IMG/VR virus record: IMGVR_UViG_3300030104_003633
Span: 1 to 21,781 of that record
Length of the DNA stretch: 21,781 nucleotides
Direction: 5' to 3' (one strand)
Origin: a virus
Shown: in pieces, positions 13,818 through 21,756 of the stretch
Position numbering within the stretch: position 1 is the stretch's first letter
Layout of the letters: each line of letters starts with the position of its first letter
Made by a program: the position numbers and the translations under genes
The notes under the pieces: generated by a model
Database searches by the model: none
Told to the model about the DNA's origin: nothing
What the model saw: only the letters and a program-made list of their open reading frames with translations

Positions 13818-14774
13818 CTATCTCCTTTTGGCGTTAGAAAATAGAGACGCTGAGAAAGCTTGGTCATCTGTCATTTGAGCAGGAGCTTGTCCTTTTTGAA
13901 CTGCTGTAGTCATTGGGACTTTTAAACGCTCTTGCTGTTGTTGCATCTGTACCACTTTCTGTTGTGACTCTATTTGTTGTTGATTACCGTTTTTTTGCAT
14001 TTCATAGAGTGCTTTAAGATTATTCATAGAGATATTTGATGGATTGGAAGCCCATTGAACAAAGCTGTCTGCATCTGTTTCAGTATAACCCCATGACGCA
14101 ATTGCGTTATTACGAGTGTTGTTATGTAACATCTGCTGTTGTTGAACTTGCATAGCTTGTTGCTGTTGCATTTGACGAGCTTGGTCAATATTGCCATACC
14201 AATCTATCATATCGTCTCTATGTTTATCTAAAGACATTCTATATTTAAACGACTCACTATTTGGGTCGTTGTACGCATCGACCTCGTTGTAAGAATGTGG
14301 TTTCTCTGGTCTGAGAGGTTTCTGCAATGATGTCTCTTGTGGATTTCCCTGTTGAGGGTTTAACCCTTGAGGTTGACCATTGGATAACGATTCTAAGTTA
14401 TCGAGCACTTTTGGATTCGATTTAATCATTTGTTCAACTGGACCTAAAGTATTTTTATAGTAATCCAGTTCATCCTGTACTCCTCTTAGCTCATTCTTTA
14501 CCTTGTCAGTTTGTGATTGCCAGTATTCATGTCTACGAGGGTCATCTTTAATCTCGCCCTGCTCTACTGATTCCTGTTGAGGAACAGCCTCTTGAGTTTG
14601 GGGTTGAGTTACATCTCCAATTGGAAATGTCTGCCCTTGGGGCATACCTTGTTCAGCAATTGATTGATTTCCAAATATAGGGTCTGCTGTTACAGGGGTA
14701 CTCTCTGCTTGAGGTATCTGTGCAGTCTCTACTGGAAACTCACCAGCATTACTTGTTTCTAGGATTTGGTCCAT
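13818..14774 (-). CDS. Capsid scaffold protein
   Basis: The 318-residue protein is extremely rich in Gln, Glu, Asn and Pro, with a Gln-rich helical stretch at about 200-215 (QARQMQQQQAMQVQQQQ) and another at about 265-290. An acidic N-terminal half carries a segment around QSQTDKVKNELRGVQDELDY that looks like a coiled coil. Such low-complexity helical proteins between portal and major capsid genes are scaffolds that guide procapsid assembly and are then lost. The C-terminus is basic (SLFSNAKRR), consistent with a scaffold contact to the capsid shell. No protease motif is visible. AAAGG lies nine bases upstream of the start. Five bases separate the stop from the capsid gene. Confidence 0.8.
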   Translation of the reverse strand: MDQILETSNAGEFPVETAQIPQAESTPVTADPIFGNQSIAEQGMPQGQTFPIGDVTQPQTQEAVPQQESVEQGEIKDDPRRHEYWQSQTDKVKNELRGVQDELDYYKNTLGPVEQMIKSNPKVLDNLESLSNGQPQGLNPQQGNPQETSLQKPLRPEKPHSYNEVDAYNDPNSESFKYRMSLDKHRDDMIDWYGNIDQARQMQQQQAMQVQQQQMLHNNTRNNAIASWGYTETDADSFVQWASNPSNISMNNLKALYEMQKNGNQQQIESQQKVVQMQQQQERLKVPMTTAVQKGQAPAQMTDDQAFSASLFSNAKRR

Positions 14775-17097: not shown

Positions 17098-18588
17098 TTA
17101 CGCTGTGAACCAACTATGATCGTTTGAAAAGATGTTTCTCTTTTTGTTATTATCCTGGGATTCAGCCTTGTGCGTAGGAGTATAAGCTTTCTTATTCGCA
17201 TAATAAAACCCATCAAGTAAATCATCATGCTTTGAACGTGGATATAAGAGGAGCTCGTTCTTAAAATCCTGCATATCTTCCTGCATTAAAACTTTCTTTT
17301 GAGCGAAGTAAGGTTGAAGTGTTTCCAGTCTTGACGATTTTGAGTTTCTGGGGTTTTCTTTAATTTCAAGACCTGATATAAAAAGACCTTCTTCTTCACA
17401 ACGCTGACGGATGTATTCTCGTAGCATTTCCTGATAGCCTACAGATTCTATCCTGCATTTATCAGGTTTATATAATTTAAACCTTTCTAAAATAGCATCA
17501 GCTAAAGCCATAGGGGAAACACGTTTACGGAAATAAGGTAGAAGGTAGCGGTTATTATCCTTATCAACAGCCACAGTAACAATAGTTGAAAAATCAGCAG
17601 TTTGTCGAGTAGAAGATGCAGGGTCAATACCCATAAAAATATTAACAGGGATTTTCTTATCGCATATCTCTCCTCTAAACTTTGTAAGATGTAAGACCTT
17701 ATCTGATTCCAAATTTCCTTCATAAAATTGAAAATACTCCTCTTTGAACAACTGGTCCTCATCACCTACAATTTCACATAAGTATTCTCTATAAAACACA
17801 GAAACCCTGCTGATGGATTCTAATTCTTCTTTCTTTTGTTTTAGTTTACTAATCGGTTGCCATTCTTCCCATAATGCTCTATTATTATCCATATCAGGTT
17901 TAAACAGCATATTATTCCAACCCTTCATTTCTTTGAGCGTCTCCACGAGGCATCTTTGATGGATAGGTGTACCAATAACAGCGAGTCTACCTTTCATCGG
18001 ATCAAGAGAGGGAACAGCAGATTGAAGTAACCATCTTAGATTGCCTTCCATCGCTTCGGCTGTCTTAGTATTGTTCTCATCCTCAGGGTCATCTACTACA
18101 ATAAGTGTAGGTCTTTGGTTTCCATGTTTAATTCCTCTAAGCTGTTGTCCTGTACCTTTACAGATAATCATAGAACCATCCTTAAGTTCTATTTCAGTCT
18201 TAGCCCATGCTTTAGCAGAATGCATACCCCAATAACCAAATAACGCCCTCAAGGATTCAGAATAATCTAATGCATCTTTAATCGTACCCAGCAGTTTAAC
18301 AGCATGGTCTTGAGTACGTGACACCAGTACAATCAGTTTCGGTCCTTTATCAAAGAACAAATGGTATAAAGGATAAACGCCCCCTACGATAGATGACTTG
18401 GCATGTCCTCTAGGTGCAATAATATTAATCTGTTTTTCATCTCTATCCATCAATACATCGGCAATCGTATAATGGAAGTCAGGAGAGGCAGATACAAACA
18501 TATTAGGCATTATAACTTTACCAAAAAGAATCATATTTCCTTTGAGTTTAGTTAATACTTCCTGTTGTGCTTTTTGTTCTTTATTCAC
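17098..18588 (-). CDS. Terminase large subunit
   Basis: The 496-residue protein has both motor and nuclease signatures. The ATPase half shows a Walker A-like APRGHAKSS (58-66), a Walker B TLIVVDDPED (161-170) and the coupling motif RLAVIGTP (201-208). The RNase H-like nuclease half has acidic residues in FMGIDPASS (D322), RIESVGYQ (E381) and SKHDDLLDG (D455, D456). Together these drive packaging and cut the concatemer. The start overlaps the end of the upstream gene by eight bases, as terminase subunits often do. The packaging mode (headful or cohesive ends) cannot be deduced from this window. Confidence 0.96.
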   Translation of the reverse strand: MNKEQKAQQEVLTKLKGNMILFGKVIMPNMFVSASPDFHYTIADVLMDRDEKQINIIAPRGHAKSSIVGGVYPLYHLFFDKGPKLIVLVSRTQDHAVKLLGTIKDALDYSESLRALFGYWGMHSAKAWAKTEIELKDGSMIICKGTGQQLRGIKHGNQRPTLIVVDDPEDENNTKTAEAMEGNLRWLLQSAVPSLDPMKGRLAVIGTPIHQRCLVETLKEMKGWNNMLFKPDMDNNRALWEEWQPISKLKQKKEELESISRVSVFYREYLCEIVGDEDQLFKEEYFQFYEGNLESDKVLHLTKFRGEICDKKIPVNIFMGIDPASSTRQTADFSTIVTVAVDKDNNRYLLPYFRKRVSPMALADAILERFKLYKPDKCRIESVGYQEMLREYIRQRCEEEGLFISGLEIKENPRNSKSSRLETLQPYFAQKKVLMQEDMQDFKNELLLYPRSKHDDLLDGFYYANKKAYTPTHKAESQDNNKKRNIFSNDHSWFTA

Positions 18589-19348: not shown

Positions 19349-19504
19349 TATCTCCCCTTATACTATAGTATATACTAGGGTATACTCAGAGTTATACACT
19401 TCTCTATTACCCCCTAGAGGGTAATAGAGTATACTTAAAGTTTAACTAGATCATACCCTAGTCATACCCAAGTATATACCCTAGTATACACTCCACACAT
19501 TACC
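19349..19504. promoter_or_regulatory. Regulatory-type intergenic region with ATACCCTAGT site array
   Basis: This gap upstream of the terminase genes contains ATACCCTAGT at 19453-19462 and 19476-19485, a variant (ATACCCAAGT) at 19464-19473, and an inverted copy at 19374-19383. The three same-strand sites are spaced by 11 and 12 bases, about one DNA turn. A longer 14-base inverted repeat pairs 19371-19384 with 19475-19488. This is the layout of a cooperative operator or of replication iterons. No convincing sigma70 promoter was found, so a phage-encoded regulator is likely if this is a late promoter. Function is inferred. Confidence 0.6.
19402..19429. repeat. 11-bp inverted repeat (hairpin) inside the site array
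   Basis: CTCTATTACCC (19402-19412) and GGGTAATAGAG (19419-19429) are perfectly complementary across a 6-base spacer, CCTAGA. An outer pair, GTATACTC (19380-19387) and GAGTATAC (19427-19434), adds a second symmetric element. It may be a protein-binding palindrome or an RNA hairpin in the leader of the terminase transcript. No U run follows on either strand, so a terminator is unlikely. Confidence 0.7.
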
Positions 19505-19693
19505 CTACGAATCATTTAACTCTTCCTGCGTTATAGCATTCTCCAGTATTGTCTTTACTACCTCTAACTCCGCAAGGTAATATTGATAGTGTGTATCAAA
19601 TTCATCCCTTGCGTCTAAAATCGACTTACTATCCTCTTTAGTAAACCTACCTAACTCCATGTCAAACACTTCATAATCTTTGGATTTGGACAT
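19505..19693 (-). CDS. Hypothetical protein, 62 aa
   Basis: This is the first minus-strand gene. It begins MSKSKDYEVFDMELGRFTKE and is a short acidic, largely helical protein ending ENAITQEELNDS. No family is recognised. Only a weak GAAAG precedes the ATG. It is separated from the terminase genes by the repeat array and faces the plus-strand genes across a 189-base divergent gap. The position would suit a small regulator, but there is no visible helix-turn-helix. Confidence 0.6.
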   Translation of the reverse strand: MSKSKDYEVFDMELGRFTKEDSKSILDARDEFDTHYQYYLAELEVVKTILENAITQEELNDS

Positions 19694-19882
19694 ATTTTAC
19701 TTTCATTGTACTTACCTGTATTAGTAATGTACTTATACAATATTTGTTCCTGATTATATACTTTGAAAATATAAACCAGAATGGGAGTGGTAGAATCACA
19801 TAGGGTGTACCCCCCATTGAATTAGGTTAGGTTGCACTAATTAGGTTGAGTTTAGTTGAGTTATAGTTAGGTTACACTATCG
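19694..19882. promoter_or_regulatory. Divergent intergenic region with TTAGGTT-rich repeats
   Basis: This 189-base gap separates leftward and rightward genes and should hold promoters for both. On the minus strand a TATAAT-like box lies at 19753-19758 but lacks a good -35 element, so I call no promoter firmly. The right half (19816-19880) is filled with TTAGGTT units, and two of them extend into TTAGGTTGCACTA and TTAGGTTACACTA. GGTGTAC occurs at 19804-19810 and 19882-19888. An origin or operator role is possible; nothing here proves it. Confidence 0.45.
19816..19844 (+). repeat. Copy 1 of an imperfect 29/30-nt direct repeat
   Basis: This begins ATTGAATTAGG and ends CACTAATTAG. It matches 21402-21431 with one substitution and one single-base gap, despite lying 1.6 kb away. 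Its ends (AATTAG and CTAATT) are complementary, so it can also fold as a small hairpin. A third, shorter relative (GTTAGGTTACACTAT) lies at 19866-19880. Confidence 0.8.
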
Positions 19883-20122
19883 GTGTACATCCTATATGTA
19901 TACAAGAAATTTAATCCCTCTTATGGATTTATTGGTGATAACGAGTTTAAAACCACTAAAGAATCTAAGATGAATAAGAATATAGAGGTGTTTGCTAATC
20001 TAATAAATATGAAAGCTAAAGACTCAGAGGGAGATTTACAGCGTTCTAATAATGATGACGCTTATTTCCTCACTTATAACTCACGTTCTGTAGAAGATTA
20101 TTTAGAGGTATTAGAGAGTTAA
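19883..20122 (+). CDS. Hypothetical early protein; start uncertain
   Basis: The longest frame uses GTG at 19883 and gives 79 residues, but no Shine-Dalgarno precedes it, and the GTG lies inside the second GGTGTAC element. The first ATG in frame is at 19970, which gives a 50-residue protein starting MNKNIEVFANLINMKAKDSE and ending SVEDYLEVLES; its ribosome binding site is also weak. The short form is at least as likely. The C-terminal part is polar and acidic with DDAYFLTYNSRSVEDY. No family is recognised. It is the first rightward gene and is followed by a series of hairpins. Confidence 0.55.
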   Translation: MYILYVYKKFNPSYGFIGDNEFKTTKESKMNKNIEVFANLINMKAKDSEGDLQRSNNDDAYFLTYNSRSVEDYLEVLES

Positions 20123-20305
20123 GGTAAATAGGTATAAGGGAGAGGTTTATCCTCTTCCTTTACCTTATTATGATAATTATACTACTACTAAAGTATTGAT
20201 TATCTTAGGGGATTTAATCCCCTATAAATAGCAATAGGTAAGGGGGGTTTATCCCCCTTTACCTTATTTTGATTATTTATATTACTAACAATTAAAGGAG
20301 ATACT
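20123..20305 (+). promoter_or_regulatory. Intergenic region with three tandem G/C-rich hairpins
   Basis: Three stem-loops lie in a row. The first, 20131-20164, has a 10-bp stem with one G-U pair, loop TTTAT, and a further 4 bp beyond a bulge. The second, 20206-20224, has a perfect 8-bp stem TAGGGGAT/ATCCCCTA with loop TTA. The third, 20236-20264, has AAGGGGG/CCCCCTT with loop GTTTAT plus 4 bp. Only the last is followed by a T-rich stretch (TTATTTTGATTATTT), so it is the best terminator candidate. The region otherwise holds the AAAGGAG site of the next gene. Confidence 0.7.
20236..20270 (+). terminator. Candidate intrinsic terminator (third hairpin)
   Basis: An 11-bp stem with one bulged T ends at 20264 and is followed by TATTTT. 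It would end transcripts from the first rightward gene. The T run is interrupted, so termination may be partial. Confidence 0.5.
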
Positions 20306-21025: not shown

Positions 21026-21401
21026 TGGTACCAATAAGTAAGTGTGTAGCAACATACAATATAAGTAGAGATGGGCGTTATTGTGTTCCCTAACTACACA
21101 CTTATGAATTTAGGTGATGAATGTTATATATCAGAAAGTTAATACTTCTCATTATAGCTACCTAATAATCAATGCACTCAAAGTAGCTGAATAGCGAAAT
21201 AAACTATGTGTATGTCCGAGAATACACACATTGATTAATGCAGAACCCTCGTTGCTTTGCGAGGCTAAAAGAAGTAAGCCATAAGCCTTATAGAGGGGCT
21301 TGACTATGTATTACAGGTTTACCAAAGGTAAGCGATAAGGATAGATACAAGATAAAGAGGCATCTACTCTTAGTAATTATAAGCAATCTAACTATGCTGA
21401 A

Positions 21402-21431
21402 ATTGAATTAGGTGTAGGTTACACTAATTAG
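21402..21431 (+). repeat. Copy 2 of the imperfect 29/30-nt direct repeat, inside the RNA
   Basis: This matches 19816-19844 with one extra base and one G to A change. The extra base improves a hairpin here: GTGTA (21412-21416) with TACAC (21420-21424), extended by AATTA/TAATT past one bulged G. Confidence 0.8.
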
Positions 21432-21662
21432 TAGGCAGGGACAGCACTCATTATTGCGATAATGTGTGTTGATTGTTTATAATTATGCATAACGGATATT
21501 GACAGGCGAGATAACTAGGTGGTGTGCACCGTACACAACTAACGAGGGTCAAGCCAATTAACAATGCCTTAGTATAAGGACTTCGTACTAGTTAAGGAGT
21601 TACACCGCTACTTCTCACTTTTTCAAACAACAATTGGGAGTGCAGAAGCAAATAGGCATGGA

Positions 21663-21727
21663 GGTAATAGAGAGTAGATACATTGTTCCTAGGAAATCAA
21701 GTTGATACTCTCTTTTTACCTTTTTTT
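21663..21727 (+). terminator. Strong intrinsic terminator of the structured RNA
   Basis: AGAGAGTA (21669-21676) pairs with TACTCTCT (21706-21713). After a small internal loop GGTAA (21663-21667) pairs with TTACC (21716-21720), and seven T residues follow directly (21721-21727). The loop contains the palindrome TTCCTAGGAA (21686-21695). This fixes the plus strand as the transcribed strand and the likely 3' end of the RNA. Confidence 0.75.
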
Positions 21728-21756
21728 GATACTTATTTAATAACTAAGGAGGTATA

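Follow-up and report, generated by a model that had tools for sequence, protein, structure and literature searches.

The window, that is, the whole stretch of 21,781 nucleotides analysed here, is a 21.8-kb IMG/VR virus record with genes for terminase (17098-18588, minus strand), portal and major head protein. Small genes lie on the opposite strand, to the right of the terminase, and after them comes the stretch 21026-21727, whose elements are collected in Table 1. The longest plus-strand ORF touching this stretch has 26 aa and no minus-strand ORF exceeds 41 aa; no reading frame is conserved across it, the differences from the sister locus L007 being insertions of whole hairpins. Scanning the window with Rfam returned zero families at the gathering threshold and at E ≤ 10, and ARAGORN found neither a tRNA nor a tmRNA in the window. 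The sequence-only reading had described about 700 nt of noncoding DNA with many stems and a terminator at its 3' end, and this description agrees with the ORF lists, with the 11-bp stem at the 5' end (21039-21049 paired with 21094-21104) and with the TGCG-loop hairpin (21445-21454 paired with 21459-21468, with a single T-T mismatch). The 3' end is formed by a hairpin at 21663-21720 followed by TTTTTTT at 21721-21727, a stem and T run that have the sequence form of an intrinsic terminator; a simple terminator scan did not list this hairpin, probably because its loop is longer than 8 nt. No known RNA had been recognised in that first reading, in keeping with the empty Rfam scans, and the reading frame or intron match that it had named as evidence against a structured RNA was looked for in the ORF lists and Rfam scans and was not found. 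Separately, we observe a repeated intergenic unit preceding small genes at window positions 20120-20300 and 21663-21745 and at about 5440-5280 of L007; it consists of an AGGTAA-hairpin-TTTACC element, then a T-rich TTATTNTGAT, then a ribosome-binding site, and resembles a shared terminator and spacer. Noncoding DNA at window 19349-19882 is likewise kept in many terminase relatives (TAGAATGGGAGTGG, ATTAGGTTGAGTT).

Table 1. Elements of the structured region, in positions of the window.
Element	Positions	Strand	Remarks
Whole multi-module noncoding RNA region	21026-21727	+	Reads the same way as the small upstream genes; free of ORFs and of Rfam matches, with comparative support
5' long hairpin, basal stem 11-12 bp	21038-21105	+	Predicted fold; nhmmer found zero relatives
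Core block a: hairpin TTTAGGT...ACCTA, inner AGAAAGTTAATACTTCT	21108-21164	+	Near identical in L007 and L004
Arm D: complete hairpin	21164-21238	+	Present in the window; missing at this point in L007 and L004
Core block b: hairpins GCAGAACCCTCG-loop-CGAGG and AAGCC..GGGGCTT	21239-21301	+	Conserved in L007, partly in L004
Variable arm	21302-21363	+	Hairpin predicted in the window and L007, with unlike sequences; no sequence relative
Core block c: 16-bp helix 21372-21387/21471-21486 bearing the TGCG hairpin 21445-21468	21365-21487	+	Conserved in L007
30-nt hairpin arm inserted in block c	21402-21431	+	Missing in L007; 93% like window 19816-19844
Module W1: GG-AUA-UUGAC-AGG-CG-AG (arm) CU-AA-CG-AGG-GUCAA-G-CC	21494-21555	+	49 other IMG/VR contigs
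W1 apical arm AGGUG-GUGUGC-ACC-GUACAC-AAC	21517-21539	+	Shared sub-module; stem covaries in L148, L159 and L174
Further predicted hairpins	21566-21660	+	No relative found; missing from L007
Intrinsic-terminator-like hairpin GGTAA..TTACC and T7	21663-21727	+	GGTAATAGAG../..CTCTTTTTACC frame similar at the end of the L007 RNA

We found that the folding of 21026-21727 exceeds chance for its composition (minimum free energy between −179 and −180 kcal/mol, for a z of −2.7; of 200 dinucleotide shuffles, one folds equally well), yet it is unremarkable inside the window. Since equal or lower scores occur in other 702-nt stretches of the window (z = −8.9 for 19601-20302 and −5.0 for 14001-14702), we rejected folding energy as proof of structure, and the proof is comparative, not energetic.

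The comparison set comprised 80 loci with related terminases. The same RNA is carried by L007, whose terminase is 90% identical, and by L004 (96%), where the RNA is cut off at the contig end, and the core blocks are approximately 95% identical among the window, L007 and L004. All three blocks are near identical in L007 save for one inserted arm, whereas whole hairpin arms of 75, 30 and about 170 nt, arm D and the 30-nt arm among them, have been added, removed or exchanged at precise junctions. A hairpin resembling arm D (AACTATGTG..TG..CCGA..CACACA) precedes block a on its 5' side in L007 and is also present in the more distant L069. Furthermore, L007 lacks module W1 and the next 100 nt, and its terminator stem bears a different apical arm, M2. 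Patterns of the window core retrieved just L007 and L004 from IMG/VR, besides matches judged to be chance, and with these two relatives only, covariation lends the core stems themselves little support. Four other candidate relatives of the core (L095, L096, L097 and L099) were rejected on inspection.

Module W1 extends well beyond the sister phages. The window copy matches L125, and when 2.9 million viral contigs were scanned with the W1 pattern, 50 of them were returned, L165 looking like a chance match, so that the module is placed in 49 other IMG/VR contigs (Table 1). The same pattern had three matches in cellular genomes (one per species; 84,980 bacterial and archaeal species), and these lack the extended consensus and were judged to be chance. 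Upon alignment, W1 consists of a varying outer stem, a freely varying apical arm and, around TGACAGGCGAG and CTAACGAGGGTCAA, a core that is invariant and folds as UUGAC/GUCAA, an AGG/AGG internal loop, CG/CG, a bulged AA and AG/CU. In the outer stem, 7 of 8 pairs are doubly changed in a compensatory manner, G-U pairs included, and 94% of the cells are paired, against 30-50% with slid partners; double-changed cells number 48 against 16.7 in shuffled alignments, and the score was reached by 0 of 500 shuffles. The stem pairs poorly in the window's own copy. The W1 of L180 is identical to that of the window (61/61), with no other similarity to the window in the 9 kb of L180 compared, and a copy of the L007 arm M2 lies beside it. 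We also find the same apical arm on different outer stems, in the pairs L138/L146, L140/L160, L141/L147 and L166/L173.

Several observations concern the surroundings of W1. The record of L161 (G058) is the sole examined record with two W1 copies, at 44433-44517 and 45178-45286, the second having a longer arm. Small proteins that look ubiquitin-like adjoin W1 in L138, L145, L148, L158 and other W1 loci; the resemblance consists of a weak ThiS match for one of them and a C-terminal KTGG or KSGG, and such a gene flanks 17 of about 45 W1 copies. JAB-like and ThiF/E1-like genes lie near W1 in L158, and similar JAB-like genes are found in L161 and L180.

The apical arm of the window's W1 sits on other cores, namely in L148, where it lies inside module X2, and in L159 and L174. 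All 5 copies of this arm pair at 6 of 6 positions, with four different stems (GUGUGC/GUACAC, GUCUAC/GUAGAC, GUAUAC/GUAUAC and GUGUAC/GUGCAC). The wider module set was derived by de novo word clustering of the noncoding DNA in the compared loci, and the clusters, counted by unlike contexts, were led by W1 (36), followed by X2 (13), X1 (10), X6 (7), X5 (6), X4 (6) and others, with some probably representing DNA-level signals such as promoters. The outer stem of X2 is paired at 8 of 8 positions and varies across 9 distinct copies, with inserts of 0 to >100 nt. Compensatory change, which the sequence-only reading had proposed as the check on a structured noncoding RNA, is therefore present in W1, in its apical arm and in X2, whereas the window core has just two relatives to judge it by. 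M2 offers no covariation test, as its three copies all share one palindrome.

Additionally, the order of the modules is shuffled between loci, with X5-A-X4-W1 in L125 and W1-X7-X5 in L150 and L177; X4 precedes A in L123, A precedes E in L126 and L129, and E precedes A in L069. The chains reach up to about 1 kb. The modules seldom fall inside ORFs, and they lie on the strand of the flanking gene in 181 cases and on the opposite strand in 12, related loci being counted separately. Rfam scans of the related loci, run at gathering and at permissive thresholds, returned nothing, and blastn against named phages gave nothing convincing, a search that a short conserved core would escape. We found no description of such modules in a limited search of the open-access literature, subscription papers and preprints being mostly outside its reach. 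Judging by the IMG record numbers, the sources are presumably largely marine.

Next, we consider module A (TTAACAAGC[AT]AAG-N6-CA[AC]GCC), which is found in related phages. It contains a perfect 8-nt palindrome in 15 of 15 listed copies (some being the same contig twice), and the palindrome takes six sequences: GCCTAGGC, GTTCGAAC, GCTCGAGC, GTACGTAC, GTCATGAC and GTATATAC. When the flanks were relaxed, all intact copies were palindromic, against 0 of 16 chance matches to a degenerate motif. Because adjacent bases within one loop cannot pair, this switching of palindromes points to pairing between two copies, and in OLE and GOLLD, loops of this kind have been taken as a sign of homo-oligomer kissing loops (PMC12286853). 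Module A is absent from the window, and 8-nt palindromes are not enriched in the noncoding blocks overall (197 observed, 184 shuffled); we therefore restrict the palindrome claim to module A, and the self-association signature speaks for the module set rather than for the window RNA. Given the self-complementary loop in this module of the relatives, at least some RNAs of the set probably pair with copies of themselves. In L019 (2340, minus strand) and L123 (2169, plus strand), an apparent intrinsic terminator between two genes has module A, palindrome included, as its loop.

Overall, it is near certain that 21026-21727 encodes a modular structured RNA, composed of a core that is kept in sister phages, arms that turn over as whole hairpins, the widespread W1 with its exchangeable arm, and a terminator-like hairpin. 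As for what it does, the best explanation in our judgement is an architectural, possibly self-associating RNA, a function we infer and to which we give about an even chance of being right. The RNA would be co-transcribed with the small upstream genes, its transcription would stop at its own terminator, and it would work as an architectural RNA in infected cells, with the invariant internal loops of the modules holding the fold and the arms supplying contact sites for other copies, other RNAs or proteins. Recombination would trade modules among phages, keeping the scaffold while diversifying the contacts. Several points stand against the architectural reading: the palindrome module is missing from the window and 8-nt palindromes are unenriched overall, the core stems draw little support from covariation, the outer stem of W1 is poorly paired in the window, and the position of W1 relative to start codons, described below, fits a cis role too. 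Taken further, a large group of uncultured phages may possess a combinatorial RNA kit of invariant-loop junctions, exchangeable arms and self-complementary loops, sorted by recombination into ever different RNAs that assemble within the infected cell as particles or networks made of RNA only, which we put forward as a tentative possibility.

Somewhat more doubtful is the possibility that these are decoy or anti-defence RNAs, in which the modules mimic structures seen by nucleases, RNA-binding proteins or defence systems of the host, titrating these factors at an early stage of infection, the swapping of modules reflecting an arms race. Such a role would suit the position among small early-type genes, the variation of arms between phages over constant cores, and the presence of common modules in otherwise different phages, as well as one W1 class that keeps its place between the same two genes yet bears several different arms. 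However, we see no likeness to tRNA, tmRNA or any Rfam RNA, and the invariance of the W1 core argues for a fixed scaffold over mimicry of varied targets.

We consider it unlikely that the W1-type modules are cis-acting leader or intercistronic elements, which would regulate the following gene at the level of translation, processing or stability in the manner of riboswitches or mRNA stabilisers. W1 does lie on the strand of the flanking gene, in many cases about 30 nt separate the end of its conserved part from a start codon, and the frequent neighbourhood of a ubiquitin-like-looking gene would also suit such a role. The ORFs downstream of W1, however, fall into about twenty unrelated groups, so that the constant downstream gene of a riboswitch-like leader is not found, and the window RNA has a terminator-like hairpin ahead of the next gene; both weaken a cis-acting role, and the length and shuffled order of the module chains likewise speak against it. 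A selfish hairpin element, that is, a MITE-like DNA repeat inserting between genes without an RNA function, would account for near-identical modules in otherwise unrelated phages and for whole hairpins that come and go at exact points. We regard it as very improbable given that 19 of 20 positive records, searched in full with a covariance model, contain a single W1 rather than many copies per genome, that the strand bias is strong, and that compensatory changes including G-U pairs surround an invariant internal-loop core; furthermore, no target-site duplication was seen. Least credible of all is a divergent member of GOLLD or ROOL, which the similar size, the phage location, the many stems, the terminator-like end and the combination of variable and conserved parts, as in GOLLD, would suit, but which is opposed by the absence of an Rfam match even at E ≤ 10 and of a tRNA island, and by a sharing and shuffling of modules between RNAs that is not described for those families in PMC12286853.

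The significance of the modular architectural RNA proposed here lies in the reuse of RNA modules, several with covariation evidence of their own, in different RNAs of different phages. GOLLD and ROOL are large phage RNAs known as isolated families, and their function is unknown. Where modules are reused across RNAs, natural swaps make it possible to read what each part does, and RNA structural biology gains natural, interchangeable building blocks; module A additionally offers a clear test for RNA self-association in phages. These findings suggest that Rfam lacks a sizeable noncoding fraction of uncultured phages.

Comparing the window RNA with known families, we find no support for the memberships that had been raised. 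Covariance models of group I and group II introns, RNase P, tmRNA, HEARO and OLE had no match in the window, GOLLD had none at the gathering threshold or at E ≤ 10, and ROOL had none in the window or the related loci. The sequence-only reading had left a choice between a new class and a divergent member of a known one, of which the former is the better guess. Its likening to the large ornate phage RNAs holds for a large structured noncoding RNA with a terminator-like end, and does not hold for a single giant class, the RNA being in truth a chain of modules. The resemblance to GOLLD, a family with symmetric loop contacts (PMC12286853), consists of a large phage-encoded RNA with many stems, a conserved and a variable part, and a function that is unknown. 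In contrast to GOLLD, the window RNA fails the model, its modules recur separately in other RNAs, and it is not beside tRNA genes, the window having none and tRNA-Met occurring in just 2 of 60 related loci. ROOL (Rumen-Originating, Ornate, Large) likewise comes from phages or prophages, has many stems and a comparable length, and forms RNA-only cages, which are octameric with quaternary kissing loops, whereas the window RNA has no Rfam match and belongs to a set whose phages exchange arms and entire junction modules; the one palindrome-switching loop seen in this set is that of the sister module A. The symmetric kissing loop L9.3 of OLE switches palindromes, as does module A of the related phages with its six palindromes; OLE, however, is a bacterial RNA without an Rfam match to these loci, and module A is absent from the window. 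In large-ribozyme peripheral domains and rRNA expansion segments, as is generally known, helices are inserted or lost at fixed points around a conserved core, as in the present RNAs. What differs here is that different RNAs have their peripheral arms, and indeed their junction modules, in common. The window RNA is thus one member of a combinatorially assembled, apparently undescribed set of phage RNAs, distinct from GOLLD and ROOL; the new element could be the combinatorial sharing of modules between RNAs or, on a stricter view, new families within the large structured phage RNAs.
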